A stretch of 57,818 nt of DNA. Source: a virus. Each line of letters starts with the position of its first letter. The stretch's first letter is position 1. This document shows positions 128-35,219 of the stretch, one piece after another. A model generated the notes under the pieces. That model had not been told where the DNA came from. It saw only the letters and a list, made by a program, of their open reading frames with translations, and ran no database searches. The stretch is taken from positions 1 to 57,818 of IMG/VR virus record IMGVR_UViG_3300032893_000051; one strand, 5' to 3'. The position numbers and the translations under genes were made by a program.

Positions 128-459
128 GTGAAATAAAATCCGGACACCGGCGACTTGAATCTGACTATTCCCTTGCCACCTAGTTGGTTCGAGAAATACG
201 ACGGATATAGCGAAGAATTTGACTGTGCTCCATTATTACCGCCCGGGGACTTGTCGTTCCAGAACGAGAAGGTAGACCCGCTCGACGGGTTGCCCATGGT
301 CGTTGGATCGTTTCCGTCCTCGTACAGGGATCCGGTTGATATCCCATTGCAGCTGGTGATTACCAGACTTGAAGGCGGTGGTGGTGTCTCTAGCACCAGG
401 CCGGCGAGCGCCAGAGCGCTGGCAATCGAGAACAAATAAACTAGGTACGCGTATCTCAT
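1..459 (-). CDS. Secreted LamG-like fibre/adhesin protein, N-terminal part
   Basis: This is the first 153 codons of a 273-residue protein whose remainder lies at 57329-57691; on the circle the gene is intact. It starts with a Sec signal peptide (MRYAYLVYLFSIASALALAG), followed by a beta-rich region whose pattern (phrases like FSFWNDKSPGG and RFATFTDLSGS-like strands) resembles a concanavalin/LamG sandwich that would bind glycans. The ATG at 459 overlaps the stop of the preceding gene as ATGA. It lies in the distal fibre group of the late operon. A signal peptide on a phage fibre-like protein is unusual. The LamG assignment comes from pattern only. Confidence 0.75.
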   Translation of the reverse strand, partial: MRYAYLVYLFSIASALALAGLVLETPPPPSSLVITSCNGISTGSLYEDGNDPTTMGNPSSGSTFSFWNDKSPGGNNGAQSNSSLYPSYFSNQLGGKGIVRFKSPVSGFYFTTAGNPTHFFTSTQPVSMYTVVKLNDNTVNNRFFATFTDLSGS

Positions 460-2144
460 TCAGAGAACCCCTGCGATGCATAGCAATGAAAATTTGAAGA
501 TGTTGATTGCTGAACGAGCACGTGGATGTCGTCGTACAGCCCGGCGGCGGATAGCGTTGGTGCGCCGACCGAGCCCCAGTCGCACTTCGGTATCGACAGC
601 GTAGCGGAGCTGGCCACCTTCACCTTCACCACATATGCTCCTCCCGCCACCGCCCCGGAAAGTGTGAGCGTGCAAGCATCGGAGGCGGTCAGGTCGACCT
701 CGGCCGTGGCGGAGTTCAGGGAGTTAAAGTTCACCGTGCCTGACGTCGTGCAGGTCACTGCACTTCCAGGCCACGCAGGGGCCATGTTGTAAACGTTGGT
801 CCCGTCGTTGTAGTCCACCGGAGCAAAATAGAGTCCGGTAACCGGAATTGAAGAGGTGCCCCACTGAGCGGTGAATGCCGTGGAGCTGGTCGGGAACATG
901 TTGAACATGATCTCGGGGGTGGCCGAGCTCATCGGAGTCAGAGCGAACCAAATTCCAGTGGGAAGATTCCCAGAGCTCCAGTTCCCAGCTGCGTACCAGT
1001 CTAGGAACGCAGTGGATCCCGGATGCAAAATGCTGGTTCCGTCGTATCCCGATGCGGCTATTATTCCCAGATTGTCGAACTGCTGCGGATAGGCTGGACT
1101 AGCGAAGCTTCCCCTTGAGGCAGACAAGGCGATGTACGCGCCTCCGAACTGACCGTTTTGCTCGTTCGCGGCTTCGATGTTAAGTCCCACTACCGCAGTC
1201 GGACTGGAAGTGTCCGCTGCAATGTATAGGTTAGAGACCGGCACTCCGAAAATGCCTTTCTGCACCGCTAGCCCTGCGGCGATCTGATCCCCAAGGTTGA
1301 TTGTGGAGTTGACGTAGACGTTACCCGGTCCCTGAATGGAGGTGCCCGAGTTCGACGAGCCGATGTCCCCGGAGCTGTTCGTAGACCAAAGCAGATTCGC
1401 TCCGGACGCGCTCGAGAGAGTCACGGCTCCGGTAAAGGAAGGATTCGCCGTGGGGGCCTTGTTGTTGAAGGTCGTCCAATCGGCCGAACTCAAAAGACCC
1501 GGCTGTGATCCTGACGCCGTCTGAACGTTGACCGTGGTTCCGGATCCGACGACAGCCCCTGTTCCCCCTCCGATACTCACACCGGTAGTGGAGGTACTTA
1601 GGTTACCTAACGTTAGTGCGCTCTGCTTCGAGTTGAAAGTATTCCAGTCCGCCGAGGATAAATATCCGGCCTGAGATGCGCCGGCCTGCTTCACCTGAAT
1701 CGAGGTTCCTGATCCGATTACGGCGCCGGTCCCACCGGAAATAGTCAGAACTGAGCTGGTCGCCTCGGTTAGGTTTCCGGTAGTGATCGCCCCCTGTTTG
1801 TTATTGAACGTAGTCCAGTCCGCAGCGCTGAGAAGTCCTGGCTGAGATCCGGAGGCGGTTTGGATGTTTACCGCAGTTCCCGATCCTATTACCGCACCGG
1901 TGCCTCCGGTGACCGACACACCGGTTGTCCCGGAAGTGAGGTTCCCGAGCGTTAGAGCGGGCTCTTTATTATTGAAGGTGTTCCAATCCGTGGCGGACAG
2001 ATACCCGTTACTGGCGGTGGTCGCCAGGCCAATGGACATCACCCCATTCGACAGGTTTAGAGGGCTCTGGGCCGTGATCCTCTGGGTGTTCTGTGCGGCT
2101 ATGGCCAGCGCTGGAATCAGAATAGAAAGAAGAAATATCCTCAT
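456..2144 (-). CDS. Secreted tail-fibre-like repeat protein
   Basis: A 562-residue protein with an N-terminal signal peptide (MRIFLLSILIPALAIAA). Residues about 25-230 hold four repeats of roughly 47 residues, each ending in a variant of LSxxDWxxFNxK and containing GGTGAVIGSGT-type glycine turns; this repeat type is typical of trimeric phage fibre shafts and bacterial surface fibres. The C-terminal half is a non-repeated beta-rich region, probably the receptor-binding end. The start has an AGGAG site eight bases upstream. It lies between two other signal-peptide fibre proteins. Export rather than direct virion assembly is inferred from the leader. Confidence 0.75.
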   Translation of the reverse strand: MRIFLLSILIPALAIAAQNTQRITAQSPLNLSNGVMSIGLATTASNGYLSATDWNTFNNKEPALTLGNLTSGTTGVSVTGGTGAVIGSGTAVNIQTASGSQPGLLSAADWTTFNNKQGAITTGNLTEATSSVLTISGGTGAVIGSGTSIQVKQAGASQAGYLSSADWNTFNSKQSALTLGNLSTSTTGVSIGGGTGAVVGSGTTVNVQTASGSQPGLLSSADWTTFNNKAPTANPSFTGAVTLSSASGANLLWSTNSSGDIGSSNSGTSIQGPGNVYVNSTINLGDQIAAGLAVQKGIFGVPVSNLYIAADTSSPTAVVGLNIEAANEQNGQFGGAYIALSASRGSFASPAYPQQFDNLGIIAASGYDGTSILHPGSTAFLDWYAAGNWSSGNLPTGIWFALTPMSSATPEIMFNMFPTSSTAFTAQWGTSSIPVTGLYFAPVDYNDGTNVYNMAPAWPGSAVTCTTSGTVNFNSLNSATAEVDLTASDACTLTLSGAVAGGAYVVKVKVASSATLSIPKCDWGSVGAPTLSAAGLYDDIHVLVQQSTSSNFHCYASQGFSE

Positions 2145-2152
2145 TTTATCTC

Positions 2153-3166
2153 CTAGTGACTAGAGCTCCTCTGTCCTTTGCATTCGAAGGTAAAAGCAAT
2201 ATCGGCCTGTCCAGGAACAGAGGTGTTCCACATATCAAATTCAACTGAGGCCGTCGGGGTTCCGGTTACGAATACCGAGCAAATAGTTGAAAGGTTGTCC
2301 ACGGCGTTGCACGTGCACTGAGCCTGATCCTGGTAGCTCGTATTGAAGGTGATGACAAACTGCCCGGTCGACACACGCGTGCAGCCGTATCCCTCTCCCT
2401 GAAGTCCCGTGTCCGGAGACGTGTAGCACGTAGTTCCGCTCGAGGCTGCGTGGTTAACGCCACCTCTGATTATCTGCAATCCGCTGGTGGAGGGAGTCGC
2501 CGAAACCACCGCCGGAAAGCAGGAGTTGCTGGAGGGCAGGCACACCTCCAGGGTGTTGTTTGAGAAGTCCTGCAAATCCGTACCCGTGTTGTTGTATCCG
2601 ATCTTTAACGGAGTATTCAGGACTAGGTCTACGATTGAATCGTCGGTGTTCTTGAAAAGCGCCGGCCTAAGCGCAGAAGAGTCATCTCCGATGACTATTG
2701 CTCCGTGGGAATAAGAGCTATCGTTGCAGATCAGAGCGGCTCGGCCATTGTTGTTTACGGTGCCTAGCTCTATGCAGTTGCTCGGAGACTGTATGTAGGC
2801 ATCTCCAGAGGAGGTGCCCCACGTCGGAAAAGTCGCGCCAACCGATCCTAGTATCACTCCGGAGGCTCCGCTTATGACTATGTCGCCGGAGTCCGCGCCG
2901 GGGTGTTGGTTCACCAGAATGGAGTTAGCCGCGCAGGTAATGTTCGTGGTGCTGTTTCCCACCAGCACGCAGTTGGTAGTGAAGCTGGCTTGGCCAGTTC
3001 CACCGTTGGCGACGTTCAGCACTCCAGTCACCGCAGCTGACTGGGACACATCTATGGCGCCCCATCCCGGAAGGGATCCGGAGCTGGGCATCCGGTAGAC
3101 ATTGTACGCAACCCTGCCAAAAGCGATCGAAGGAAGAAGTATAAGAAGTAGGAATAAATTTTTCAT
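2153..3166 (-). CDS. Secreted fibre-like protein
   Basis: A 337-residue protein beginning with a clear signal peptide (MKNLFLLLILLPSIAFG). Residues about 50-85 carry NVANGGTGQASFTTN, a phrase common in phage tail-fibre proteins (GGTGxxS/T element). The rest is Ser/Thr/Gly-rich and beta-predicted, with paired cysteines near the end (CTCNAVDNLSTIC). The ATG overlaps the stop of the upstream adaptor-like gene as ATGA, so both are translated together. Its role as a host-recognition fibre is inferred from position and repeat style. Confidence 0.7.
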   Translation of the reverse strand: MKNLFLLLILLPSIAFGRVAYNVYRMPSSGSLPGWGAIDVSQSAAVTGVLNVANGGTGQASFTTNCVLVGNSTTNITCAANSILVNQHPGADSGDIVISGASGVILGSVGATFPTWGTSSGDAYIQSPSNCIELGTVNNNGRAALICNDSSYSHGAIVIGDDSSALRPALFKNTDDSIVDLVLNTPLKIGYNNTGTDLQDFSNNTLEVCLPSSNSCFPAVVSATPSTSGLQIIRGGVNHAASSGTTCYTSPDTGLQGEGYGCTRVSTGQFVITFNTSYQDQAQCTCNAVDNLSTICSVFVTGTPTASVEFDMWNTSVPGQADIAFTFECKGQRSSSH

Positions 3167-3651
3167 GTGCTCACTTGCCAGTATACACCGGCTCCGTTTG
3201 AGTGAAGTCGAATCGTTTCTCCGTTGGCTCCCAAAGTAATAGAACTGCCGGCAGACTGGTTTTCTATCTTGTCGGATCCAGTAGTCAGGGCGATCGTGAC
3301 GGCGTTCGCGTTCGTGTAGTTGATGTTTTTTATGATGAAGTCCACATCCAGGTTGGAAGCTGAGTCCGGAAGTGTCACGGTCAGCGGCGCTCCAGATGGA
3401 TTCGCGAAGATGATCGGTACTCCGACCTGGGCCGTGTAGTTTCCCGTTACGGTGACCGAGGTCGGGTTTTGGTTAGACGCGAAGTCCAGCCACTGAATCC
3501 AACGATCCACAAGGTTGAAAAGGTAGTTCTCGTACTGCGAAGGGGGCATCTGCCCGACTTGCCATCCCGAGGTCGACTGGCCACCAGAGGGTTGTATGCA
3601 ATTCGACTGAGAGGGGTTCCAGTTAAGATAGTTTGATGGTTTTGAAGGCAT
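3163..3651 (-). CDS. Baseplate-proximal fibre adaptor-like protein
   Basis: A 162-residue protein without signal peptide, directly after the DUF2612 baseplate protein. The N-terminal 60 residues (MPSKPSNYLNWNPSQ, then QMPPSQYENYLFNLVDRWIQWLD) look like the stem that many small myoviruses use to fix a fibre to the baseplate; the C-terminal 100 residues are a beta-rich domain of the TVTLPDSASN type seen in fibre proteins. It is the only cytoplasmic-looking protein of the distal fibre set, so it may be the true virion attachment. Function is inferred from context. Confidence 0.55.
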   Translation of the reverse strand: MPSKPSNYLNWNPSQSNCIQPSGGQSTSGWQVGQMPPSQYENYLFNLVDRWIQWLDFASNQNPTSVTVTGNYTAQVGVPIIFANPSGAPLTVTLPDSASNLDVDFIIKNINYTNANAVTIALTTGSDKIENQSAGSSITLGANGETIRLHSNGAGVYWQVST

Positions 3652-12739: not shown

Positions 12740-14281
12740 TTAGACGGTTACGACACCCACGATCTGAATGAAGTGAAACGCTCCAGCGAGACGGCAGCTA
12801 AAGCTAACGTCCGGTAGCAATCGCAAGGCCCGATCGTTCGGCGGAATCTGGTTTACCGTAGGCGCCGAGACCACGATCGGACTCTGGCCATCGATCAAGC
12901 CGTTCACCACACCCTGCTGGAGGGTCTGCCGAACTGCGTTCACGATAAGTGAAATACCCTGGTCCGTGTAGGGGACCTTGGGGGTGTTCACTAGGATCGA
13001 AAAAACATTCGCCTGCATCGTGCTCTGCAGCCAGTCGATTCCGACAGTGACGTCGATAAACTGTCCCCCAGAGGTGAATCCCTCCTCGGTGATGTTCACG
13101 CCGCCGACGGTCTCGTAGATGTTGCAGTTCTTTCCGGGCTCCCCAGGAATCCCAATGCACGTCGTTCGCTGCGTGGGAGTGAGGTTGTCCGGAGTTATGC
13201 CGACGAGGGTCTTGAATTTCCAGGTAGAGGCACCGGGGATCTGCGGGAGCTGCCCGCCCATCCATGCCGCCGCGGCTGCATCGTTCGGAGTGCCAGAGTA
13301 GAGCAGGAACGTCCGCTTGTAGGATTTCCCCTTCAGCACGGAGGCAACGTCCGTGTTCGAGGAAGTTAGAACGTCCTGGTCGTTCGTGTCCGCGCCGAAC
13401 AGCTTCACCTGCGTCTCGATGTACGCGGCGACCTGTTCGATGTCCCAGGCGTGCTGCGAGCAAAGCAGTACTCCGTACCACAAATCGTTCTGCAGCTGGC
13501 ACTGCTGGATGTCCGACACCATCGTGTGATTCGGGGTCACCAGTGCGTGGGTGAGATCCGTGTCCACGTTCGTGTAGACCTGGCCTTCACCGGGCTGCGC
13601 GGCCGTCAAAGTGAGCAGCGCGGATCCGCCGGTGCCGGTCACCAAGCCAGTTACTGGAGGAGTGGCGAACACCACGTCGATGTCGCTCAAAAGTCCGTTG
13701 AGGATGTCCTGCTGGGCGTTTCCAGAGGTCGCCTGATACGAAACCAACTCACCGTTCAGGGTGAACTCGTACAGGTGCGACGTGTTCAGAGTGTTCACCT
13801 GGAGCGTGTCGACCTGCGCGACGCTGGCAGAGACTCGTCCGACGTAGAAAATCGGTGGTTGGAGCGACTGCTCGAGCAGTTCGGAGGCCTCGATATACTC
13901 CTGGTCCGTCGTCTGGAAACCATCGCTCACCATGCCCAGAAGGCTCGTGTACGCGCGGATCCAGTCCGTGAAGGTCAGCGACACCGTGCCGGATCCGGTG
14001 GCGGGATTCGACAGGGTGAGTTTGTTCCCCTGGATCGCCAAAACCGTCGTGTCCGGAGGGATGTTCGTGCCGGTGATCTGCTGAAACTGTGAAATTCCCG
14101 TGGTGGAGACCAGCCCAGTAACGACGTTGCTGCCGTTCGTGGTCGTCCCCATGGTGGTTGCGGATGCAGCAAACCGGTTCGAGGTTCCGAAGATCGCCGG
14201 AATCGAAAAACTTGCCTGCTGTACGGCTTGGGTCTCCTGCGTGATTACTACCTGTACGATATCGCTAATGGGTGCTGACAT
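12740..14281 (-). CDS. Contractile tail sheath protein (DUF3383-like)
   Basis: A 513-residue protein with the DUF3383 framework: N-terminal SDIVQVVITQETQAVQQASF, a central DLTHALVTPNHTMVSDIQQC and LLCSQHAWDIEQVAAYIETQ, and a C-terminal ISLIVNAVRQTLQQGVVNGL, with SCRLAGAFHFIQIVGVVTV at the end, the strand that interlocks sheath subunits. Residues about 45-104 form an inserted module with GTNIPPDTTV that resembles the three modules inserted in the baseplate J-like protein. This gene defines the phage as a myovirus. Confidence 0.9.
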   Translation of the reverse strand: MSAPISDIVQVVITQETQAVQQASFSIPAIFGTSNRFAASATTMGTTTNGSNVVTGLVSTTGISQFQQITGTNIPPDTTVLAIQGNKLTLSNPATGSGTVSLTFTDWIRAYTSLLGMVSDGFQTTDQEYIEASELLEQSLQPPIFYVGRVSASVAQVDTLQVNTLNTSHLYEFTLNGELVSYQATSGNAQQDILNGLLSDIDVVFATPPVTGLVTGTGGSALLTLTAAQPGEGQVYTNVDTDLTHALVTPNHTMVSDIQQCQLQNDLWYGVLLCSQHAWDIEQVAAYIETQVKLFGADTNDQDVLTSSNTDVASVLKGKSYKRTFLLYSGTPNDAAAAAWMGGQLPQIPGASTWKFKTLVGITPDNLTPTQRTTCIGIPGEPGKNCNIYETVGGVNITEEGFTSGGQFIDVTVGIDWLQSTMQANVFSILVNTPKVPYTDQGISLIVNAVRQTLQQGVVNGLIDGQSPIVVSAPTVNQIPPNDRALRLLPDVSFSCRLAGAFHFIQIVGVVTV

Positions 14282-19377: not shown

Positions 19378-22188
19378 TTACGACCTGACACCAAGTCCCC
19401 CCACCGACACGCCCTGGTACTCCCCGTCCAACACTTTTCGCCACTCTTTCGGGTCCAGGATCTTGATCGCTATGACCCAGGAACCTTGCTTCACGGTTTG
19501 GGGTCCGTAGGGCCCCTCGTTCCACTCCAGGTCCTGCGGCACTATGTAGGATTCGACGGGCACCGCCTCTATTTCTTCCTCGTGGTTTTTCCCAACCATT
19601 CGGGAGCTTATCAGGTAGTTGTGCGCCGCTTCCTCGATATCCTCGGGGGTCATCCAATCGTCCTGTTCGTCGAGCTCCTCGGGGGCTAACACTACGCAGT
19701 AAATGATCTGCTTTTTTATGTCGGCCTTCTTGATCGGACAGATCTTCCGCACCCACTTCGTCAGCTCTGGGTATCGGTTGTAGATCGCGTTCTTTACGAT
19801 CTCCTCGTCGGTGGTTCCGGAGGATTGCCGAAGCGACTCCATGGCTTTTTCGAGGGTCTCCATCGGATAGGCCATTCGATCCGGCACAGCGTAGTTCTCG
19901 TTGCCGATGAGTTCAGCGGGTTTCGCATCCAGCATAGGCTGGGACTCCTGCGCTTCCTCTGAGAGAAACCGGTGGAAATCCCCCTGGAACTTCTCAAAGT
20001 CCGGCACCAGCTCCTCGGTCGACGGGTGCACGCCCTCGCCCTGTTCCTCGAGCAGAAATCGGATGAAGTTTTCTCCAAAGTTCGACAGCGCCTGGTCTAG
20101 ATCTCCGATCTCGTGCTTTTCTATTTCGCTGCCGGCCCCGGGCTGCTGTCCGGCGACTATCACTTTGTCATCGGAGTGCTCCTGCTGCCGAGAGACTAAA
20201 GAGCCCTGGCTCGGGTATCCGTGAACGCGATTACCCCGTCCGGAGCTCGTGGCGTCGCTCCAGGTGTAGCCGAGAGCGTCCATCGCCAGTAGTGCGTCTG
20301 CAGGGAGCATGTCATATTGGGCAATCCCGATTCTCGGCTCCGAATCGTTCGACGTGGAAGCATCGGGGACCGCCACTCCAGTGAACCGCTGGCGAAAGCT
20401 CGGCTGCCCCTCTATCTTCTGGACATCCTCGTTTGTTTCATGACCGGTGAGGACGAGCCGTGGGAACTCCTTCGTCCAGTCGGGGTAGTTGTAGATGTCG
20501 TTCGGGCCCTCATAGGTGAATTGCCCTCCTGGCATGAGCACGCGCTGAATCTCCGACAGTAGAGCCTTCTGGTCCTGTTTTTCCAGATCCTGTAGCCCAT
20601 CGCGGAGTCGCACATTTCGGACGCTCCTGTCTGGTAAAGGAATTCCGGTTGTAAGATCGTGAACCACGGTGCCGTAGTCGTAGGGGTAGACGTCAAATCC
20701 CACGTAGCCGGGCATCCGCGCCTGCCCGCTCATCAAATCTATATTCAGCCCCACCGGCCAGTTGGATGTGGATTCTTCTTCGTTTTCGAGAGTGTCCTTG
20801 TTAATTTCCGGGTTATGCTCGATCGCCAACGCATCGCTGGTGTCTACTGTTTCGATTCGCTTTTTCCGATAGTAGTCTGGGTCGTCCTCGAGGTGACTTA
20901 TGGCAAGCTCCTTCGCCTCCTCGCCAACGCTCGTCGTGTGCTCCATTTCCCAGTCGATTCCTGAGACGATTTGCTCCATGCCGTACAAATCCGACGCATC
21001 CTGGTTGTCGCCGGCCACGTAGTTCTTCAGACACTCGCCGTACTTTTCCGCCACGGAAAAAAGCCCCAGTCCCCCAAATTCCTTCAGCACTTCAGCTTCC
21101 AGATTGTTCACGCTCGGGGGCTCTACCTGAGAACTACGGCTCCGGTCAGTCGAGGTAGGCGGAGTCCCCTGCGGCTCGACCTTTCGCTGAAACGGCTGCT
21201 TTTTCTCGTCCTGTGGAGGGGAGGGAACGTGGACGTCCGAGCCCCCTGGCTGAGCTTTGGAGATCTCTGGAAAGTTCCTTCTGAGATGGTCCTTTAGGCC
21301 CGGGTGCGTTTCCATTATCGACATCGTCTCCTCCGGAGTAAAAACTCTCGCCGGCAGCTGCTTTTTCCCAGTCTTTATGGCTTTGTGCATGCGGTGGTGC
21401 CCGTCAATCAGTAGGTATCGAATCCCCTCCTGCGTGGGAATCGAGGCAATGAAAACGGGGTTTTTGGACTTCGATCCCATCGCCGCCTGCTCGTCGACGT
21501 GTATCTTGTCACTCCACGCGGGATCCACGGGGACCTTGGCGTTGTGCTTTTTGCCGGCAAGGTCTCGCGCCTTGTCGATGTCGAAAATCATCGACCCTAT
21601 GACGAACTTCTCCGCGTCCGAGCCGTCACGGACAGTCCCACCGAGGACGTCGGGCAGCGAGCGGTAGATGTTCTCTGGGGTGACGTCCGGGGCAACGCCC
21701 TCGACTGGCTCCGGATCGGATTTTCCGACTTCTCCTGTGGCTTCACCCGTATTCCTACCGACACGCACCGCACGGTCATCCCATAGCTCCTTCATGTGGT
21801 GATCCTTGACGTTGGTGACTTCCAGCCTGGGAAGCCCCTGCGCCTCGAGCCAGTCCTGGATTTTCTTTACGTTGCCTTTTTTCCCAGCGCGCGCGGTGAA
21901 AACCTTTACGTTCTCGCCCTTCGACAGCCAGTCCTTCACCCGGTTGACCATGGGTCCAACGGCTTGGCCGATGTGGTCGTCGCCTTTGTACCCATCGTAA
22001 TGGGCTAGCGTTCCGTCCAGATCGACTCCGATCCAGGAGTCCATTTTCTTCTTCTTGGTTTCTACCTTCTCTGGAAGGTCCATCCCGCGGCTCGCGCGGT
22101 CGTATTCCCGAACGGTCTTTTTGGGGATATCCCCGCGGGCCTCGGCTGCGTGAAAGAATCGACGCTGTGCTTCCGAAACGTACGGCAT
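19378..22188 (-). CDS. 936-residue multidomain head protein: HAD, ParB-like, DUF5661, methyltransferase-like, XkdF
   Basis: I chose the ATG at 22188 (MPYVSEAQRRFFHAAEARGD, a widespread phage N-terminal motif) because it has a GGAGG site and forms TAATG with the upstream stop. Domains by residue: HAD-like phosphatase at about 49-145 (VDLDGTL, FTARAG, ELWDDRAV); ParB/sulfiredoxin-like at about 190-295 (LLIDGHHRMHKA); DUF5661-like at about 365-445 (ELAISHLEDDPDYY); SAM-methyltransferase-like at about 475-600 (LNIDLMSG, GFDVYPY, EIQRVLMPGGQF); XkdF-type prohead-protease domain at about 810-936 (PEELDEQDDWMTPEDIEEAA). The C-terminal domain fits the position before the scaffold gene; the joined enzyme domains are most unusual and may be carried into the capsid or released by processing. 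Confidence 0.75.
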   Translation of the reverse strand: MPYVSEAQRRFFHAAEARGDIPKKTVREYDRASRGMDLPEKVETKKKKMDSWIGVDLDGTLAHYDGYKGDDHIGQAVGPMVNRVKDWLSKGENVKVFTARAGKKGNVKKIQDWLEAQGLPRLEVTNVKDHHMKELWDDRAVRVGRNTGEATGEVGKSDPEPVEGVAPDVTPENIYRSLPDVLGGTVRDGSDAEKFVIGSMIFDIDKARDLAGKKHNAKVPVDPAWSDKIHVDEQAAMGSKSKNPVFIASIPTQEGIRYLLIDGHHRMHKAIKTGKKQLPARVFTPEETMSIMETHPGLKDHLRRNFPEISKAQPGGSDVHVPSPPQDEKKQPFQRKVEPQGTPPTSTDRSRSSQVEPPSVNNLEAEVLKEFGGLGLFSVAEKYGECLKNYVAGDNQDASDLYGMEQIVSGIDWEMEHTTSVGEEAKELAISHLEDDPDYYRKKRIETVDTSDALAIEHNPEINKDTLENEEESTSNWPVGLNIDLMSGQARMPGYVGFDVYPYDYGTVVHDLTTGIPLPDRSVRNVRLRDGLQDLEKQDQKALLSEIQRVLMPGGQFTYEGPNDIYNYPDWTKEFPRLVLTGHETNEDVQKIEGQPSFRQRFTGVAVPDASTSNDSEPRIGIAQYDMLPADALLAMDALGYTWSDATSSGRGNRVHGYPSQGSLVSRQQEHSDDKVIVAGQQPGAGSEIEKHEIGDLDQALSNFGENFIRFLLEEQGEGVHPSTEELVPDFEKFQGDFHRFLSEEAQESQPMLDAKPAELIGNENYAVPDRMAYPMETLEKAMESLRQSSGTTDEEIVKNAIYNRYPELTKWVRKICPIKKADIKKQIIYCVVLAPEELDEQDDWMTPEDIEEAAHNYLISSRMVGKNHEEEIEAVPVESYIVPQDLEWNEGPYGPQTVKQGSWVIAIKILDPKEWRKVLDGEYQGVSVGGLGVRS

Positions 22189-23066
22189 TAAGCCTCCGAA
22201 ATCTCGATGGTCAGTATGCACTCGCAGTTAGGGTGAAGCGGAGGGCCATCCACTCCGGCCGAGAACTGGTCGTGCAGTCCGACGGATTCACCATCAAGCT
22301 CCGTGCACTCTGGGCACGGGTTGCCGTCCACCTGCCAGACCTTCTGAGAGCCTTGCCCAATCAGCCCCTCGGCTGCGGCAGCCTGCCAAACTAATTGCTG
22401 CCCCTGATTCTGAACGGCCTGCGTCTCGGTCTTCGCTATCATCTTAGCACGGTAGTCGAGCAGCCTGTCATGGTACTGGTCCACAAGCTTATCTATCCTA
22501 GTTCTGGGCAGCCCCTGCGACTCTAGGGTCGATTGGTAGTTGATCAGCGCTGTGGCCTGCTGTGGGTAGAGTCCGATCATGGGCTTGATCAGCCGAGCCA
22601 TCGTGGGCACTGGAATCGACTCACGGAGCTGTTTCTCCACAGCCTGCTGGATGACTTTCCGGGCATCGGTGCTGATGTCGGTGACGAGCCTTCCCGTTCT
22701 GCGGTCAACGTAGTCCTGTATTCTCCGGTTCTTTAGGTCAAATCTCAAATTCTTATCTGCCTGTGCCGGCAGCGGGGCTAGATCGGAAAACTCTCCCATG
22801 GACCTAGCCATATGCGCGCGGTATTGGTCCAACTCGTCGGGCAGCTCGCTCCAGGGAACGAGTGAGTAAATTGAGTTGTAGTTTCCCGACAACCACGCGT
22901 CCGACAAAGTTTTCTCGCTGATCTTTTTCTTGAAGGACTTTATCCCAGACAAAAAGTCCACGCGCGCGGCCTGGGACATCGTATTCGTCAGCGCCCGCAC
23001 CCGAGCGGTAGTCCTACGGTACGTTTTTCTGGGAGCCGCCTTCTGAACTGTGGAGAAGATGATCAC
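22188..23066 (-). CDS. Phage head morphogenesis protein (Mu gpF-like)
   Basis: A 292-residue protein whose C-terminus has the family signature: MIAKTETQAVQNQGQQLVWQ, then CPECTELDGE and LHPNCECILTIEI, the paired cysteines of the Mu F-like minor head domain. The N-terminal part is helical. It follows the portal and Cys-rich genes and is expected to be a minor head protein next to the portal. Coupled upstream by ATGA. Confidence 0.85.
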   Translation of the reverse strand: MIIFSTVQKAAPRKTYRRTTARVRALTNTMSQAARVDFLSGIKSFKKKISEKTLSDAWLSGNYNSIYSLVPWSELPDELDQYRAHMARSMGEFSDLAPLPAQADKNLRFDLKNRRIQDYVDRRTGRLVTDISTDARKVIQQAVEKQLRESIPVPTMARLIKPMIGLYPQQATALINYQSTLESQGLPRTRIDKLVDQYHDRLLDYRAKMIAKTETQAVQNQGQQLVWQAAAAEGLIGQGSQKVWQVDGNPCPECTELDGESVGLHDQFSAGVDGPPLHPNCECILTIEISEA

Positions 23067-23283: not shown

Positions 23284-24960
23284 CTAGTAGTTGAAGTTGA
23301 TCCGCTTCCGGTCTCTTTCGGCCCATTCGGTTTCCCTTCCGTTGTTTCGGTAGGTATCCCGCTCTGTGTTGGCCTGCGGATTGGTTTTGAAGTTCGTGGA
23401 CGGGTTCTGAGGAGCCACGTCCGTCTGAGTAATCGGGTTATTGTTACCCAGGGCGTTCGCCTCTGTATAGACCGCAGACGTCGCAGGCTTTTGGTTCACC
23501 GGCGTGGTGTCCGCAGGGAGGGTTAGCCCCGTCGGCGTCTGCACGGGCACGCCTGGGATCTCCACCACTTTCTGCGGGATCTCGGGTTCTTTCAGCTCGA
23601 CCTGCATCGACTCCATGCTCATCGGATCCGAGGGCTCGGGCATGTTGCCAACCTTCATCAGGTACTTCTCTAGGTCGAGATTTGGGAACAGCGGGAATCC
23701 GGAGATCGCTAGGTTTTTGATGTACTCGCCGAGTTCCTTGAGATCCACGGACATCAGATCGCCGTGGGTAATTTTGGGGTAGTCGGAAATGGCAAAGTCG
23801 TTTAGGGCGAACAGTCTGGGAATCGCATAGTTGTTGAAAATGTCGGCGATGATGTCCAGCTGTCCGCCTATTGCGGTGGAGAACAGGTTCGTCTTCGACG
23901 AGGCGAGCGCGTAGCTTCCGACCTTGTCCTGTCCCATGAGCATAAAGTCCGCCACCATCGTCATCGCGATTCTCTGGTCGTAGCGGTTTATTATTTTGTC
24001 CGTGTCGAACTGGCGCTGGCCGCCGGTGGAGAGGAGTTTTAGTTCGAACAGTTCCTTTCCGACAGTGTCGTATGCCTTCGGAAAGATGACGCCTTCCTGT
24101 GCGTCTCGTCGGATGTTGATGACGATATCCCGAATGGACGCTAGCAAGTTCTTCTGCGACTGGCTGGCTCCCTCGGTCAGCAGCTCGGGCGGTACGAGTG
24201 CCACTGGAAGACCGGCGAGATCGCGCTCCACTCCGATCGCCTCGATGTTCTCTATGTTCTTCTTCATGTACCAGGGGCGGTACGCGTTTCTCAGAAGTGA
24301 TTTACCTTCGGGGTTATTCTTTTCGGTGGTGGTCCGAAAGAGGAGCATTTTTTCGATGGGGATGGTGACGTGGTAGTAGTGAGGCGGGGCGAGCTGCTCG
24401 ACGCCTTGGATACCGCCGTGATCGTCAAATTGCCATCGATAAATTGTATCTTGTGACCGAATCGGAAACTTGCGCCATCCGATCCTTCCGTCACTGTACT
24501 TCGATCGCATGGTCGGATCGAAAACGTCACCGCACCGCCTTTTGTAAATGATCTCGTGGACCGAGTATCCGTACCCCAGCATTGAGAGAATCGCGTCGAT
24601 GGTGTCCACCCAGGTGTCGGACATGTCGTTCATGCAGGTCTCGACGAACTCGGCCGCCTCCTCGTCATTGGGGTGGGCCGACGCCGGGGTAACCCGCCAC
24701 GGTACTCGACGACAGAGCATCTTGATCGCGAAGATGATGCCGCCGACCGTGGGGTCGTTGTTCAGCATCTCCTTGAAGACCTGAACGCCCTTCCATCCGG
24801 TCAGCTCGAGAAGGAATTCCTCGAAGATAAATCCGGAGAACCTGCGCAGACCGGTCGCCCCGACCTCGCGCATGTCGACAACTTTTGTCTCCGCTCCAGT
24901 AAGCATCTGGCCGATCGTGGCCTTGCGAACTGGCTCCTTGGGTCCGGATTTCTTAGCCAT
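23284..24960 (-). CDS. Portal protein (DUF935, Mu gp29-like)
   Basis: A 558-residue protein with the DUF935 pattern: FKEMLNNDPTVGGIIFAIKM, then LSMLGYGYSVHEIIYKRRCG, GKSLLRNAYRPWYMKKNIEN and NRYDQRIAMTMVADFMLMGQ. It forms the dodecameric channel at the capsid vertex and binds the terminase. The C-terminal 100 residues are Pro/Thr/Asn-rich and probably disordered. The ATG forms TAATG with the upstream stop. Confidence 0.9.
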   Translation of the reverse strand: MAKKSGPKEPVRKATIGQMLTGAETKVVDMREVGATGLRRFSGFIFEEFLLELTGWKGVQVFKEMLNNDPTVGGIIFAIKMLCRRVPWRVTPASAHPNDEEAAEFVETCMNDMSDTWVDTIDAILSMLGYGYSVHEIIYKRRCGDVFDPTMRSKYSDGRIGWRKFPIRSQDTIYRWQFDDHGGIQGVEQLAPPHYYHVTIPIEKMLLFRTTTEKNNPEGKSLLRNAYRPWYMKKNIENIEAIGVERDLAGLPVALVPPELLTEGASQSQKNLLASIRDIVINIRRDAQEGVIFPKAYDTVGKELFELKLLSTGGQRQFDTDKIINRYDQRIAMTMVADFMLMGQDKVGSYALASSKTNLFSTAIGGQLDIIADIFNNYAIPRLFALNDFAISDYPKITHGDLMSVDLKELGEYIKNLAISGFPLFPNLDLEKYLMKVGNMPEPSDPMSMESMQVELKEPEIPQKVVEIPGVPVQTPTGLTLPADTTPVNQKPATSAVYTEANALGNNNPITQTDVAPQNPSTNFKTNPQANTERDTYRNNGRETEWAERDRKRINFNY

Positions 24961-25256
24961 TACGCGCCTTCGGTCATGTAGAGAGTTCCGCCGCCTGAGG
25001 CCTGAATCACGGCCACCTTCTGTCCGCCGGCGATCCCGACGTAGGTGGGCACGTTAGCCGGAAGGTACATCGACGTGTTTGCGACCGCCGTCGGGCTTGC
25101 CCCCACCGCAATGAAGCACGCGACCGTGGCGGTGAGAAGAACCGCCGTCGTGGTATCAGCGACCGCACTGCTCTGAGTGCTGCTTCCGCCGATGGCAACC
25201 GATTGGCTGGTTCCGGGATATATTCCGGGAACTGCTTTCGAGATGGCTGAGCTCAT
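24960..25256 (-). CDS. Small virion protein upstream of portal
   Basis: A 98-residue Ala/Ser/Thr/Val-rich protein with a hydrophobic middle (TTTAVLLTATVACFIAVGAS) followed by a beta hairpin (KVAVIQASGGGTLYMTE). It has no signal peptide. It looks like a small head or fibre-base protein of the type that stacks in trimers, but I do not recognise a family. Coupled to the portal by TAATG. Confidence 0.5.
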   Translation of the reverse strand: MSSAISKAVPGIYPGTSQSVAIGGSSTQSSAVADTTTAVLLTATVACFIAVGASPTAVANTSMYLPANVPTYVGIAGGQKVAVIQASGGGTLYMTEGA

Positions 25257-25264
25257 TTATCCCC

Positions 25265-25828
25265 CTAGTTCGAAATTGAAATCGCCCCAATTAAAGTGAC
25301 GGCAGGCGGCACCCCTATCTGGGTGAAGTCCCACTGCGAGTTCAGCGCAGTGGCCGCGTCGTTTATGGCCATGACTGTCGACGTATATGTTGCTGAGTAT
25401 GTTATCACATTCTGCACCCAAGTCAGGAGCGGTTGGATGTAGGCCACTCTGTTAGTAAGGCTATTCTGCTGGGCCAGGTAGTAAATAATAAAAAGTCGGA
25501 ACTGAGTTTCCAGAGAGTAAAACTCCTGGACGTACTGCTCTAGCGCTAGGCTGAAGTTCGTCAGGTTCTCTTTCTTGGCGTCGGCGAGCGACGGAACCGG
25601 AAGCCCGAAGGTGTCCGATCCGGCATTATACGCATCCCCGATGTTGAAGCTTTGTCCTCCCACTGTCGTGTCCACGCAATAGTCGTACTGCGGAGCGTAA
25701 ACACTCTGAACGTCGGTTAGACTGGCCATGATGCTTTGGACCACAAGTCCATTTAAAACCAGCGCCCACAGATCGACAGCCGTTGGATCGCTGTTCTGGT
25801 CCACTATGGTTCCCTTAGGTACTGCCAT
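25265..25828 (-). CDS. Virion-associated protein of unknown function
   Basis: A 187-residue protein. The ATG at 25828 forms TGATG with the stop of the upstream gene and has a GGAG site; longer frames only add an Arg/Trp-rich shadow of the glycine-rich gene. The sequence is mostly helical (NLTNFSLALEQYVQEFYSLE) with a beta start. No family recognised. It is the only one of this group without signal peptide besides the next small gene. Confidence 0.55.
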   Translation of the reverse strand: MAVPKGTIVDQNSDPTAVDLWALVLNGLVVQSIMASLTDVQSVYAPQYDYCVDTTVGGQSFNIGDAYNAGSDTFGLPVPSLADAKKENLTNFSLALEQYVQEFYSLETQFRLFIIYYLAQQNSLTNRVAYIQPLLTWVQNVITYSATYTSTVMAINDAATALNSQWDFTQIGVPPAVTLIGAISISN

Positions 25829-26745
25829 CACTCCACCCACTTTATTAGAATTCTGCCTCCAGAGCCCTGCGCCCCGTTGGCTCCGTTGCCTCCTGTAGTC
25901 CCAGTCGTTGCCAAAGCCCCTCCACCACCGCCTCCGCCACCGCCGCCTCCGCCACATCCAGCATTTACCGTTGGTGTCGATCCAGCGTTTCCGCCTCCGT
26001 TTCCAGCAGTGCCTCCGAGTGCTCCTGGACCACCGTTCTGACAGTTCACGTCTCCGCCGGTGGGTGCGCCTCCACCTCCACCACCACCACCCGATGTTCC
26101 TGTGGGACTGTCGCCTCCAGCGCCTCCGCTTCCAGCCGTTCCGAAAGGGGATATTCCAGCTGGACTCATCCCATTAATTCCGTCGTTGTGCCTAGTTCCT
26201 CCAGTGCCACCGTCTCCGCCAAATACGCTGAATGTTCCTCCGCCGCACAGTGGCGTGCAGCTATTGTTTGTTCCGCCAGCTCCTGCCGTGGCAAGTGCCC
26301 CTCCGTTTCCCCCGTCTCCACCGTTCGCTCCAGGAAAGGAGAGTAATGCGTCAAAAGTAGATGTGCCTCCGTTGCCGCCATTGACGGCGTTAGCGCCAGT
26401 ACCAGACGGGGCTGTTCCACCTCCTCCACCAGTTCCTGCAGATCCTCCCCCGCCTATGGTGATTACATACGTAGTCCCTGGCGTTACCGATATGGTGTAC
26501 GTCCCAGTCACGGCAGATCCACCCGCGGATCCGCCACCACCGCCCGCTCCCTGGTTCGTAGTACTGCCGCCGGCTCCTCCGCCTCCTCCTCCACCACCTC
26601 CCGATCCGCCTCTGCCCTCAACCGTCACCGTGGTCACTCCTGCCGGAGCGGTCCAGTTCCCAGAGGCTACGAAGACTTGAGTGACAACCCTTGGCTCGCC
26701 TGCCAGGGCCGGTAGGGTAGCCAGTAAAATAAAAAGTCTCAGCAT
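25828..26745 (-). CDS. Secreted glycine-rich fibre-like protein
   Basis: A 305-residue protein with a signal peptide (MLRLFILLATLPALAG) followed by VFVASGNWTAPAGVTTVTVE, a domain opening common in phage tail fibres, and then about 220 residues of Gly/Ala/Ser/Thr sequence with long glycine runs, like the polyglycine-II bundles of phage adhesin tips. The ATG at 26745 forms TGATG with the upstream stop. A glycine-rich adhesin with a leader suggests export to the host surface. Confidence 0.7.
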   Translation of the reverse strand: MLRLFILLATLPALAGEPRVVTQVFVASGNWTAPAGVTTVTVEGRGGSGGGGGGGGGAGGSTTNQGAGGGGGSAGGSAVTGTYTISVTPGTTYVITIGGGGSAGTGGGGGTAPSGTGANAVNGGNGGTSTFDALLSFPGANGGDGGNGGALATAGAGGTNNSCTPLCGGGTFSVFGGDGGTGGTRHNDGINGMSPAGISPFGTAGSGGAGGDSPTGTSGGGGGGGGAPTGGDVNCQNGGPGALGGTAGNGGGNAGSTPTVNAGCGGGGGGGGGGGGALATTGTTGGNGANGAQGSGGRILIKWVE

Positions 26746-27191
26746 CAGTCCATCCACCAGTTAGTTCCGTCCGAGGACACCCAAGTAACGCTGCCGTACG
26801 GAGTCGTGTACTTTTTGCTCGCGGCCAAACCCTCCAGCGTCTCAGAAGCGTGCTGCACGAAAGTGATGTTGGGCGCTCCGGATATGTCCTTCACGATGAA
26901 GGTTCTGCCAGTAGTTGCCGCGGGCATGGTGATATTTATTGCGGACGTCGTGTTTACGAAAATAGCGTAGTCCGTGGTCGTGGTGTCGACAGTGAGGCTT
27001 CCGGTGATCGTTCTGGTTGTGACACTCCAACCGCCGTTCGCCTGGTTCACACCGGTTCCGCCGCTCACGCCGATGATCGCGGGCACGAAGATGTACGCTG
27101 CTGGGCCGGGATTCCAAATGATGGGCGGGTTAGGCGGAGTGAGTCCCGCGAGCGCCACGCTGGAGAGCAATGAGAGAAGAAGCATCCTCAT
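26745..27191 (-). CDS. Secreted fibre-like protein, small
   Basis: A 148-residue protein with a signal peptide (MRMLLLSLLSSVALAG) and a beta domain (NITMPAATTGRTFIVKDISG, then YTTPYGSVTWVSSDGTNWW) of the kind that ends many phage fibre proteins. The ATG overlaps the upstream stop as ATGA. Probably part of the same exported fibre complex as its neighbours. Confidence 0.65.
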   Translation of the reverse strand: MRMLLLSLLSSVALAGLTPPNPPIIWNPGPAAYIFVPAIIGVSGGTGVNQANGGWSVTTRTITGSLTVDTTTTDYAIFVNTTSAINITMPAATTGRTFIVKDISGAPNITFVQHASETLEGLAASKKYTTPYGSVTWVSSDGTNWWMD

Positions 27192-28705
27192 TTGTAAAAC
27201 GTCATGTTGACGCTCCCGGTGGTGATGTTCGCGGTCTTCGCCTGGAACCCTAGGCAGTTGCCGGACGGGATCATGAAGTCCTTACCGCCGCCTCCGGCGC
27301 TGACGATGATCGCGTTGGATGAAGTGGACAGGGCTCCGCACGTGGCGGCGTAGGCAAGGTAATAGTCCGAACCGGAGGAATCGAAGATGTCTATCTCATT
27401 TATCGCGGCGCTGGTGGAGCTGATGATCGTGGTGAACGAGCTCGTCGACAGATTCGCCGAGGAATAGCTTTGAGTGAAAGTCGATAGAACTCCTCTCCCG
27501 CTTCCGGCGTTAGCCGTTACAGCTCCAGAAATCGGCTGCGTCACCCCGCTTCCATCCACCCGCAGGGCGCCAGCGGTCGTCAGGGACAGCGGATTCGTCT
27601 TCGCAGTGACGTACGTGGGCGCGGACGTAGTGACTGCGCCCTGAACAATCGGCCCCGACTGCCCTGAGGTCGTGCTCCCCTGCGCTAGTAGAATCCCGTT
27701 CACGCTCGTGTCCAGCGCCAGCGCCGACGTGTTGAGGTTCGTTCCAGCATTTGCCGTGACCGTCCATGATCCCCCCTGATTGGCAGTCACGGTCCCGGAG
27801 ACAACCCACGGGGAAGTCGACTGCGTCACTCCTATTGTCGATGGAAAATTTGAGACAGCTACGGAGTCGGTGCCGCTATTCAGGGTCCACGTGCGGCCCG
27901 TCGTCCATGCTCCCGATTGAACCGCAGCCACTGAATCCGTCGCATTGCTCAGAGTCCACGTCCTGCCCGTCGTCCACGAACCCCCCTGGAATGAGGTAAT
28001 TTGGTCCGATGTAGTCAGGGCACGGATTTGCGTCGGGTCCACATAGCTCGACCCATTGGAGATCTGCACCGCTAGTGGGTTCGTCGAGGATGGGGCCGAT
28101 CCCAAGACTTGGGTAATGTTTATCGATTGCGTGGCAGGAAAGTTGGATACCAAAGCAGAGACAGAATCCGAGCCACTTGAGAGAGTCCATGTTCTCCCCG
28201 TGCTTCCCGAGATTGGTTGAGTCGTCGTTCCGGTCGGGTCGATCCGGAGCGGATTCGAAGGAGTACCTAGTAATACTGTACCATCGGTCAACTCAACGGG
28301 CCATCCGTTGGCGAGCGTGTTCGGCGTTCCCTGATTGGCTGTGAAGGCCCCAGGGAAGGACGACACAGCCACCAGCAGGTTTCCGGAGCCGTCCAGACTC
28401 AGGCCGGTCAGAGTGCCAGATTGATTCCCTGCGATGTAGGTTCCGCTGTTCGGCACGGCGCTTCCGGTTGGTCCAACGCTGGCGTTGCTGCCACTACCAC
28501 CACCGGTCGTAATGAGCTCGCCGCTCGCGTCCACGGCCACGGGGAGGAAGGTGTCTCCGTACAGCCCCATCATCGGGTAGCCAAGGCTCTGGAGTAATTT
28601 CCCATCCCCGGGATCGATGCCTATCTGCCCCTGGTCCCCGCGGTAGACAGTGTAGGACCCAAAACACAGAGCCGGGAAAAGTAACGCGAGAATGATTCGC
28701 TTCAT
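27188..28705 (-). CDS. Secreted fibre-like repeat protein
   Basis: A 505-residue protein beginning MKRIILALLFPALCFG, a clear signal peptide. The middle has three copies of GRTWTLxxxxDSVxA and several NQGGSWTV-like strands, a repeat style of beta-structured shaft proteins; the C-terminal 120 residues are non-repetitive (NEIDIFDSSGSDYYLAYAA). The ATG at 28705 overlaps the terminase stop as ATGA. Its place between terminase and portal is unusual for a fibre gene. Confidence 0.7.
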   Translation of the reverse strand: MKRIILALLFPALCFGSYTVYRGDQGQIGIDPGDGKLLQSLGYPMMGLYGDTFLPVAVDASGELITTGGGSGSNASVGPTGSAVPNSGTYIAGNQSGTLTGLSLDGSGNLLVAVSSFPGAFTANQGTPNTLANGWPVELTDGTVLLGTPSNPLRIDPTGTTTQPISGSTGRTWTLSSGSDSVSALVSNFPATQSINITQVLGSAPSSTNPLAVQISNGSSYVDPTQIRALTTSDQITSFQGGSWTTGRTWTLSNATDSVAAVQSGAWTTGRTWTLNSGTDSVAVSNFPSTIGVTQSTSPWVVSGTVTANQGGSWTVTANAGTNLNTSALALDTSVNGILLAQGSTTSGQSGPIVQGAVTTSAPTYVTAKTNPLSLTTAGALRVDGSGVTQPISGAVTANAGSGRGVLSTFTQSYSSANLSTSSFTTIISSTSAAINEIDIFDSSGSDYYLAYAATCGALSTSSNAIIVSAGGGGKDFMIPSGNCLGFQAKTANITTGSVNMTFYK

Positions 28706-30075
28706 CGTATCCACTTACTCGCTCCAGTGAGGCTGACGGGCTTCCAGTTAGTGGGCATTCCGGTTGACAGCTCGGAGATTGCCTGGGTCGATGCGTCCAC
28801 CTGATCGTCGTTCTTCCCGTTTGGAAATTCTGCCCATTCCTGTACGTAGTCTCCTATCCATGGTGCCAGGGATGGATCCGGAATCCAAACGTTTCCTGAC
28901 TCTATCTGCGGGGATACAGCCTGGGCGCGGAGTTCCTTTGACCCTTTGGGGCGTATGGGGACAATGCCGGCGATTTCGCGTTTGAGGGTGTCGATCAGGG
29001 CCGCGCCGTTTGCCGCTTCCTCCACGCACTTCTTACCGGCGTTCGGGTATCTGGCAGACAAAGTACGAAAGGCGCCTATGGTGTCCGTGAAAGAAAGACG
29101 CGCGCGTATCTGGTCGATCAGGTACTTATCGGCGCCAACCTTCCCCCACACCTGCCCCACGACGTAGTCGGTCGATGCGCCTTCCTTGAAGGTAAGGTCC
29201 CACGACGAAATCATCAGGTCCATTTGCGGGAGAGTCTTGTAGTACTTCCACCAGTGCCGCTTGACGATATTCCCTTCCTGCGGGCTCGGGCGTTGCTGGT
29301 AGAGAGCCTCGAAGTCCTGGCTTCCGATCGTCTTCTTGGTTTGCAGAAGAGTGTCGATGTCGAATCGCTCTGGCCACAGAGCCTTTCCCTCTTCGTCGAT
29401 CGCGGGCATCGAGAGGATTTCCCAGTCGTTCCCTTGCGTGTCGATCAAGTGCGCCGGCAGATCCTTGTCGGACCAGCGAGTTTGAATCAGCACGATCTTT
29501 CCGCCTGGCGCGAGTCGCGTGTAGAGCACAGAGCCGAACCAGTCTTTTATTTCCTTCAGAATCGGCTCGGAGTTCGCTTCCTGACGGTTCTTATGTATAT
29601 CGTCGATAATAATCAGATTCGCTCCGCGGGACGTAAGCGGACCTTTCGCTCCGACTGCGTAGTACGCGCCGCCTTGCTTGGTGTTGAATCGGTGAGCGGC
29701 GAGCGACTCGGGATTTAATTCTAGCTCTGGGAAGATCGCTTTGTAGTCCGGCGTGGTCATCAGCGCGCGGGTTTTCCGTCCAAAATCGGATGCTACTTCC
29801 TGCGAATACGTCGTGGATATCACTTCGTGGCTCGGGTGCCGGCCCATGTACCACGAGGGAAGTAGGGCATTCACCATTCTGGACTTCCCGTGCCGAGGAG
29901 GCGCGTAGATCATCAGCCGCATAATATCCCCGCGTTCTAGCGCCTCGATTCTGCGGACCATGCGGACGATATGGTTGGGAGTCTGGTAGTCGTCGTCCAT
30001 AACAGCAGCGTAGGAAAGTAAATCGTTCCGCGCCCATTGCTGTACGGCTATTTGTATTTCACTACGATGCTGCAT
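28702..30075 (-). CDS. terL: Terminase large subunit
   Basis: A 457-residue protein with an ATPase domain (Walker A YAPPRHGKSRM at about 56-66; Walker B LIIIDDIHK) and a C-terminal RNase-H-like nuclease (MISSWDLTFKEGASTDYVVG, CVEEAANGAALIDTLKREI, KNDDQVDASTQAISEL). It packages DNA through the portal. It follows the small subunit, separated only by a small zinc-ribbon gene with which it overlaps by 28 bases. Confidence 0.92.
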   Translation of the reverse strand: MQHRSEIQIAVQQWARNDLLSYAAVMDDDYQTPNHIVRMVRRIEALERGDIMRLMIYAPPRHGKSRMVNALLPSWYMGRHPSHEVISTTYSQEVASDFGRKTRALMTTPDYKAIFPELELNPESLAAHRFNTKQGGAYYAVGAKGPLTSRGANLIIIDDIHKNRQEANSEPILKEIKDWFGSVLYTRLAPGGKIVLIQTRWSDKDLPAHLIDTQGNDWEILSMPAIDEEGKALWPERFDIDTLLQTKKTIGSQDFEALYQQRPSPQEGNIVKRHWWKYYKTLPQMDLMISSWDLTFKEGASTDYVVGQVWGKVGADKYLIDQIRARLSFTDTIGAFRTLSARYPNAGKKCVEEAANGAALIDTLKREIAGIVPIRPKGSKELRAQAVSPQIESGNVWIPDPSLAPWIGDYVQEWAEFPNGKNDDQVDASTQAISELSTGMPTNWKPVSLTGASKWIR

Positions 30076-31231: not shown

Positions 31232-32158
31232 TCAGTCAACCATGAGTCCGAAGAATTCGAGGATTACAAATCCCGCGACTAGGCAGACCATCACTAGGAA
31301 GATGTAGAACGGCCAACTGTGGTCATCTCCGGTTGCGGAGATTTCTTCCTTGTCCACGTTGAAAATCAAAGCATCCGACGCAACACTGTTGCATTTCACA
31401 CCATTTTTGTCGGTGGCCTTGGTCCAGATGTAGCCTTTTTCTCCCCACTCCGTGCCCCAGGAGTTTTTCACGTGGAACAATCCCACGCCGTTCGGCAGGT
31501 TGCCCTCTGCGTTAAACTTGCATTGTCCCTCACAATCATATCCGGTCAGTAAAACCATGTGGTTCACCTGACCTGGAGTGCAGGCCTTGTACACTCCGCC
31601 CTGATACAGCTCCCAGTGCATGTCCGCATAAACGTCGACAGACACGGGGTGGTGCAGCACGCCGACGGAGTAGGCGATATCGCGGAAGCTGGGGCCGTTC
31701 ATTTCTCCCAGCATCGAATAACTCTCTGCGGAGGCGACGGGTTTGAGATGCCGGCAGGTCGAGGTCTGTCCAGTGTACGGCCACTGATTGTACGTCGGAG
31801 GTCCTTTCGGATTTATGAACCACTCCGCCGCGTCGAAATCCCCTCCACTGCATCCGTCCGCAGTTTCGTAGTCGCAGTCGATCAGATAGTTGAACGACAG
31901 CCGCCCCGGATCCCGTCCGGAGTTTAACAGCGTGTCTCGGAGGTTTCCGGTTAGTGAGAAGTCGTAGCAGTCCCCGCATTCCCCCTGGTTCTCCACGGGC
32001 GAGGCTTTCAGGTCGTACTTATTCGGGATGACGGAGGTTTCCGCGAGAAACGAAATGTGCGGCATCGCCTCGAGCATCTTGTGGGTTTTTCGCTTCAGGC
32101 CTTTGGGATGCAGCGCATAGGCGTTCGTCGCAATCAGAAGGATGAGAATCAGTCGCAT
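31232..32158 (-). CDS. Membrane-anchored papain-like cysteine protease (C1A)
   Basis: A 308-residue protein with a signal peptide (MRLILILLIATNAYA), almost no propeptide, and all C1A landmarks: Gln58 in NQGECGDCYDFS, catalytic Cys64, GCSGGDFDAAEWF, His200 in VNHMVLLTGYD and Asn232 in KNSWGTEWGEKGY. Residues 282-305 form a C-terminal membrane segment (FYIFLVMVCLVAGFVILEFF), so the enzyme would sit on the periplasmic side of the inner membrane. It forms a two-gene unit with a 47-residue protein and has its own terminator. Papain-like enzymes are rare in phages; the target could be host envelope proteins, competing phage, or the phage's own secreted fibres. Confidence 0.85.
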   Translation of the reverse strand: MRLILILLIATNAYALHPKGLKRKTHKMLEAMPHISFLAETSVIPNKYDLKASPVENQGECGDCYDFSLTGNLRDTLLNSGRDPGRLSFNYLIDCDYETADGCSGGDFDAAEWFINPKGPPTYNQWPYTGQTSTCRHLKPVASAESYSMLGEMNGPSFRDIAYSVGVLHHPVSVDVYADMHWELYQGGVYKACTPGQVNHMVLLTGYDCEGQCKFNAEGNLPNGVGLFHVKNSWGTEWGEKGYIWTKATDKNGVKCNSVASDALIFNVDKEEISATGDDHSWPFYIFLVMVCLVAGFVILEFFGLMVD

Positions 32159-34623: not shown

Positions 34624-35184
34624 ATGAAGTACGTTGCTTGGATTTTATTACTGACCGGCTGCGGGAAGTGGCTGCCCGTGGCCAATGTTTCCTCCCCCTC
34701 GCCGACTCCCTCGGCGGAGTTGGTATCGCCCAGCGAGTCCAGAGTCGTCCCGAAGTCGACGCCTACCCCGACTCCGAAACCTACAGCGACGCCGACGCCA
34801 AATCCCTGGCAGGACTGTCAGACCTACGGGACCCAGCAGAGCTACACGCCGAACAACCGGGACTTCCAAGTACAGATCATGCCCCTGAAGTGCAACTTTC
34901 CGCCGACAAACATTGGCTCGTCCTACTCAAAGATTTCCTCTGACGAGTACGACGTGGAGGTAGAGTCCTTACTCAGCGGTGTTCCGACCCAGTGTCAAAA
35001 TATATTGAACGTCGCTCCGGAGGGCGCGTCGGATCTGCTCTGCAAGCTCAATTTTTCTGGAGCCAGCGCAGACGTCGGGAACCTGGTTACCGTCTCATAC
35101 ACCATCTCTGCCTCGTATTCCCTGGCCGGCCAAACCACGCAAATATCTTCCTCGAGCTGGACGACGCTAACGCTTTCCTACTAG
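34624..35184 (+). CDS. Outer-membrane-type lipoprotein with Pro/Thr linker
   Basis: A 186-residue protein with a lipoprotein signal (LLLTG then Cys13) and a Pro/Thr/Ser linker (about 22-60, repeated TPTPTPKPT type), followed by a beta domain with cysteines at about 66, 90, 123 and 142. A lipobox points to a Gram-negative envelope. It could be an outer-membrane spanin or a superinfection-exclusion lipoprotein; the linker length and folded domain favour a surface function. No partner inner spanin was recognised. Confidence 0.7.
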   Translation: MKYVAWILLLTGCGKWLPVANVSSPSPTPSAELVSPSESRVVPKSTPTPTPKPTATPTPNPWQDCQTYGTQQSYTPNNRDFQVQIMPLKCNFPPTNIGSSYSKISSDEYDVEVESLLSGVPTQCQNILNVAPEGASDLLCKLNFSGASADVGNLVTVSYTISASYSLAGQTTQISSSSWTTLTLSY

Positions 35185-35219
35185 GCCTTCTGGTATACTG
35201 AAAGTCCAGGAGGTCGAAA

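Follow-up and report, generated by a model that had tools for sequence, protein, structure and literature searches.

Fibre-like proteins with predicted Sec signal peptides encoded in the late operon of a contractile-tailed phage and their possible action outside the cytoplasm

Textbook tailed phages assemble the entire virion, fibres included, in the cytoplasm. No published precedent for signal peptides on the fibres of tailed phages has been found in the open literature searched, a scope outside which most subscription papers fall. The closest described plan is that of the mosaic adhesive trimer (MAT) proteins of Bdellovibrio bacteriovorus, which are exported and in which a signal peptide and a conserved N-terminal end precede a fibre-like body, the C-terminal ends being diverse (PMC10769870). 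Members of the MAT superfamily have a conserved β-rich domain of about 130 residues following the signal peptide and a C-terminal S74 peptidase or a tip of solved fold (PMC10769870).

The phage phi1422 (NC_019525) is a cultured phage of B. bacteriovorus (PMC3391216). Its tail-fibre locus encodes an ordinary fibre, gp67, followed by gp68 (614 residues) with the signal peptide MKFMIAFIIALFSVTMATA and, further on, by gp75, which also bears a signal peptide; both gp68 and gp75 are annotated as hypothetical. Signal peptides are absent from the fibre genes of related myoviruses of non-predators (Vibrio, Pectobacterium and Aeromonas; CP-T1, ZF40 and Aeromonas phage 56) and from those of the Bdellovibrio phage phi1402.

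The stretch of DNA considered in the current analysis, referred to as the window, is the virus record IMGVR_UViG_3300032893_000051 of IMG/VR (57.8 kb). Profile matches have identified in it late genes for a Mu-type portal, a MuF-like protein, a sheath and a baseplate. The presence of the tail sheath gene (12740..14281, minus strand; phrog_205, 2.3e-92; DUF3383, 2.5e-33) identifies the phage as a contractile-tailed myovirus. The MuF gene is followed by a 947-residue ORF (19378-22221, minus strand) that looks by eye like a patchwork of parts resembling a phosphatase, a methyltransferase and a protease.

The original prediction of three successive fibre-like ORFs with Sec signal peptides between terL and the portal gene has been confirmed at its positions on the minus strand. 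The large terminase subunit gene, terL (28702..30075, minus strand; phrog_38, 1.9e-108), lies upstream of this cluster and the gene of the Mu-type portal protein (23284..24960, minus strand; phrog_113, 4e-84; PF06074, 1.7e-37) downstream of it. The first of the three, g508 (27188..28705, minus strand), encodes 505 residues from its ATG and has the predicted signal peptide MKRIILALLFPALCFG at 28705-28658. The second, g148 (26745..27191, minus strand), encodes a fibre-domain protein of 148 residues with the signal peptide MRMLLLSLLSSVALA at 27191-27147 and the mature N-terminus GLTPPNPPIIWNPG. The third, g309 (25828..26745, minus strand), encodes a glycine-rich fibre- or adhesin-like protein of 305 residues from the ATG at 26745, with the signal peptide MLRLFILLATLPALA at 26745-26701. 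The starts of g508, g148 and g309 overlap the respective upstream stops in ATGA, ATGA and TGATG, and the three genes are thus predicted to be translationally coupled to terL and to one another. The next start codons past the signal peptides are at codons 45, 36 and 37 respectively, well within the proteins. Two ORFs without signal peptides, which the original prediction did not mention, separate the three genes from the portal gene, namely g230 (25265..25828, minus strand), which likely begins at an ATG (25828) that overlaps the stop codon of g309, and the small ORF call g98 (24960..25256, minus strand; 98 residues).

The protein encoded by g508 comprises a shaft of SGTWTV/NFPA repeats followed by a C-terminal domain of about 103 residues with two conserved cysteines. 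Relatives of g508, all with signal peptides, have been identified in three other phages (L006, L007 and L116). The identity to the L116 protein is 41% over 471 residues, and the C-terminal domain is 79-81% identical in L006 and L116. L116 (IMGVR_UViG_3300035696_000005, 182 kb) contains two adjacent fibre genes with signal peptides, of which one is this relative of g508; the occurrence of such fibres in a large phage contig indicates that the trait spans genome-size classes. The g148 protein shares 50% identity over 113 residues with the middle of a second fibre with a signal peptide in L007, P0006, and g309 shares 56% with the start of the glycine-rich part of P0006, a match that is confined to 32 residues because the remainder is low-complexity glycine. 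P0006 is one protein with one signal peptide, and its equivalent in the window is the pair g148 and g309, each with a signal peptide of its own. The matches of the window proteins with signal peptides to curated fibre families in PHROG are weak or driven by composition, and several of the proteins have none; g309, for instance, matches the tail family phrog_863 at 3e-5, which is likely to be a composition-biased match. No match to g508 or g148 was found among 50,697 phage records.

Two further fibre-like genes with signal peptides, which the original prediction had missed, have been identified where the tail module ends, past the baseplate genes. They encode proteins of 562 residues (456..2144, minus strand; signal peptide at 2144-2097) and 337 residues (2153..3166, minus strand; signal peptide at 3166-3116). 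The latter has 12 cysteines in its mature part, an ATGA overlap with the upstream gene and a match to the tail fibre family phrog_31660 (E=0.024). The former contains DWNTFNNK repeats, a family common to many phage fibres that lack a signal peptide. Both genes directly follow the gene of a short fibre-like protein without a signal peptide (3163..3651, minus strand; 162 residues), whose N-terminus matches the tail fibre families phrog_2282 and phrog_20878 (1e-4 to 5e-4) and which is a candidate for a virion-proximal fibre or adaptor. The features expected of tail fibres, that is fibre-like repeats or composition and a position in the late structural operon next to terL and portal or baseplate genes, are present in the window proteins as judged from their sequences.

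Elsewhere in the window, signal peptides have been noted on other proteins. These include a papain-like C1 protease (31232-32158, minus strand; PF00112, 1.7e-35), whose signal peptide is clear and which also has a hydrophobic segment at its C-terminus, and two small proteins encoded side by side on the opposite strand (34624-35975, plus strand), one of which has a possible lipobox.

Signal peptides were assigned by a rule-based caller of our own, in place of SignalP, that considers the charge of the n-region, the h-region and the -3/-1 rule. By this caller all five fibre-like genes of the window are positive, with a positively charged n-region, a hydrophobic h-region, small residues at -3/-1 and a short length. 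The false-positive rate on shuffled N-termini is 1.4% and the background among ORFs of at least 150 residues, taken from their first start in control phage contigs, is 13 in 412. None of the 85 fibre-like ORFs picked by composition in the control contigs was positive. The tail fibres of tailed phages that share the DWNTFNNK repeat with the 562-residue window protein (IMG/VR L012-L091) differ from the window proteins in that 0 of 63 have a signal peptide and in a cysteine content that is about six-fold lower.

Besides the window, at least 13 phages of IMG/VR encode fibres with signal peptides. Eleven of these, each a distinct contig, belong to a family reached from the N-terminus of the L007 fibre P0006, and their mature proteins start with GLPPTTSK right behind a divergent signal peptide ending in alanine (once in glycine); the invariance of the motif partly reflects its use in the search. 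This family includes podovirus-like as well as myovirus-like phages, and the motif had no match in the 50,697 phage records. Identity within the family is 27% in the signal peptide regions and 63% from +1 to +35, while the residue at -1 is always alanine or glycine and that at -3 is always small. Divergent signal peptides next to conserved small -3/-1 residues and a conserved mature end are expected of cleaved signal peptides and not of a conserved anchor. A GLPPTTSK-family fibre whose signal peptide region is hidden by N is also encoded in L105 (PLEQ01000488.1), a phage contig that was binned with a MAG of Deltaproteobacteria from a bog.

The protein encoded directly upstream of the GLPPTTSK fibre gene has a single conserved domain of about 90 residues at its C-terminus in 10 of the 11 phages (L092, L093, L094, L097, L098, L099, L100, L102, L103 and L104) as well as in L105. 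The domain was found in none of the control contigs. The protein lacks a signal peptide in 7 of the 10 phages, and this suggests, as the simplest reading, a virion adaptor made in the cytoplasm and paired with the exported fibre. Against such a role, the domain was not found in the window or in phi1422, and the upstream protein has a signal peptide in the other three phages. In another reading, the conserved domain may provide flanks for the swapping of fibre cassettes. Several versions of the domain without a signal peptide contain a cysteine pair, and two versions with a signal peptide contain none.

The cysteine content of the window fibres with signal peptides is 1.25% as against 0.45% in the other late proteins of the window (p=4e-4), and the number of cysteines is even in 18 of 24 cysteine-containing fibres with signal peptides (p=0.011). 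These figures lean towards oxidised folding; they are rated as weak evidence because the same-locus controls are close (0.78% in the fibres with signal peptides and 0.60% in all same-locus ORFs, p=0.03) and because of the cysteine pair in several upstream domains without a signal peptide. Cysteine enrichment was also considered as a proof of export and is weakened by the same two observations. The AF2 models of the C-terminal domain of g508 (pLDDT 53) and of the g148 domain (pLDDT 48) are too poor for comparison of folds, and structures have therefore been compared by sequence alone. In this comparison, sequence searches of the PDB returned nothing meaningful among the solved structures, a set in which the tips of the Bdellovibrio fibres should be present.

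MATs and the phage fibres share a phage-fibre-like plan with a signal peptide, a conserved mature N-terminal end and diverse C-terminal ends. Unlike MATs, the window proteins are encoded by a phage within late virion operons. The likeness is one of overall plan; the comparison covered this plan and the C-terminal ends, and the phage family has a conserved GLPPTTSK end of its own. No match to the S74 domain (PF13884) was found in the window proteins, and the PDB searches linked none of them to the tips of Bdellovibrio fibres. MATs offer the closest plan, yet by these sequence comparisons the window proteins are no more than MAT-like. In phi1422 proteins with signal peptides occur in the tail-fibre locus as in the window, but there are two such genes beside the ordinary fibre gp67, and gp68 has no direct sequence match to the window proteins. 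One fibre with a signal peptide, in L104, aligns with gp68 (28% over 142 residues), and a homologue of gp68 with a signal peptide (41-43% identity) is encoded in L118, a phage contig whose source appears to be the genome of an isolate. The hint of a Bdellovibrio-like host that accompanied the original prediction gains from the signal peptides of gp68 and gp75 and from the homology of the L104 fibre to gp68. The fibres of phi1402, which lack signal peptides, indicate that the trait is not universal in Bdellovibrio phages, and such a host for the window stands as no more than a lead. A scan of genome contigs assigned no host to the window and returned as the only relative a phage contig inside a MAG, whose phylum is represented by 58 genomes in the set.

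The proposal that the fibres are exported is upheld by the recurrence of divergent signal peptides with conserved cleavage sites and by the signal peptides on both g148 and g309, and the window fibres are very probably exported. We lean slightly, with a probability of roughly 0.45, towards fibres that are exported, fold outside the cytoplasm and join particles at lysis. Five adhesive fibres would be made late, alongside the virion proteins, and would cross the inner membrane by the host Sec system, signal peptidase I presumably cutting the signal peptide. They would fold and probably trimerise in the periplasm, possibly with disulfides, and would act outside the cytoplasm, most likely as distal or accessory host-recognition fibres. 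As virions assemble in the cytoplasm, joining must come after lysis, and it may take place through adaptors made in the cytoplasm without a signal peptide. Joining the virion is considered about half as likely as export. Only tentatively do we extend the proposal to a tailed-phage group whose host-recognition fibres would use host Sec, mature in the periplasm and dock onto adaptors without signal peptides exclusively outside the cytoplasm. The main proposal draws on what the sequences show, namely signal peptide anatomy, recurrence, absence from control fibres, coupling to virion genes and the partner-like domain of the sister family.

Exported fibres might also never join virions. Like the Bdellovibrio MAT adhesins, they would then be secreted or exposed on the surface of the infected cell, and they would serve as decoys against superinfection or as adhesins that alter attachment to prey by the infected predator or by its remains. 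To this we give considerable weight without holding it probable. The signal peptide, conserved mature N-terminal end and diverse C-terminal ends copy the MAT plan (PMC10769870), one N-terminal motif occurs across phages of different tail type as would fit a host partner, and five different fibres are many for one virion. Several phages, moreover, encode a fibre-like gene lacking a signal peptide as well (phi1422, L006, L092, L094, L098 and L118). Joining the virion is favoured by the contigs G061, G065, G067 and G071, in which no fibre-like ORF was seen besides the genes with signal peptides. A role away from the virion fits less well with the place of the genes in the late operon, with their coupling to terL and to tail genes, with the conserved neighbour gene without a signal peptide in most GLPPTTSK phages, and with the lack of a sequence match to the solved MAT tips.

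Export itself would be mistaken if the hydrophobic N-termini were uncleaved helices for virion assembly or membrane tethering, on proteins that stay cytoplasmic or attached to the inner membrane. Cleavage is the prediction of a simple rule-based caller; such N-termini are however absent from control fibres, and they diverge in sequence around -3/-1 residues that are kept small and ahead of a conserved mature end, which makes this improbable. A smaller chance still is given to host-derived adhesin genes carried as phage cargo unrelated to infection: the resemblance to host MATs is offset by the search of host genomes, which found as a relative only the phage contig in a MAG, and by the location of the genes within the late operons of many phages with conserved neighbours. 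That the signal peptides arise from start choice, misassembly or chance hydrophobicity is scarcely credible. Most members come solely from metagenomic contigs, but the trait occurs in independent samples and in the cultured phi1422, the start codons allow no start free of a signal peptide, and shuffled N-termini are seldom positive.

Real export signals on the fibre genes of many different phages would point to a further route by which fibres are assembled, outside the cytoplasm and in addition to the cytoplasmic one, or to a class of secreted adhesins made by phages, and the trait can be tested in the cultured phage phi1422. Either outcome would inform the origin of MATs, the phage-like secreted fibres of predatory bacteria.
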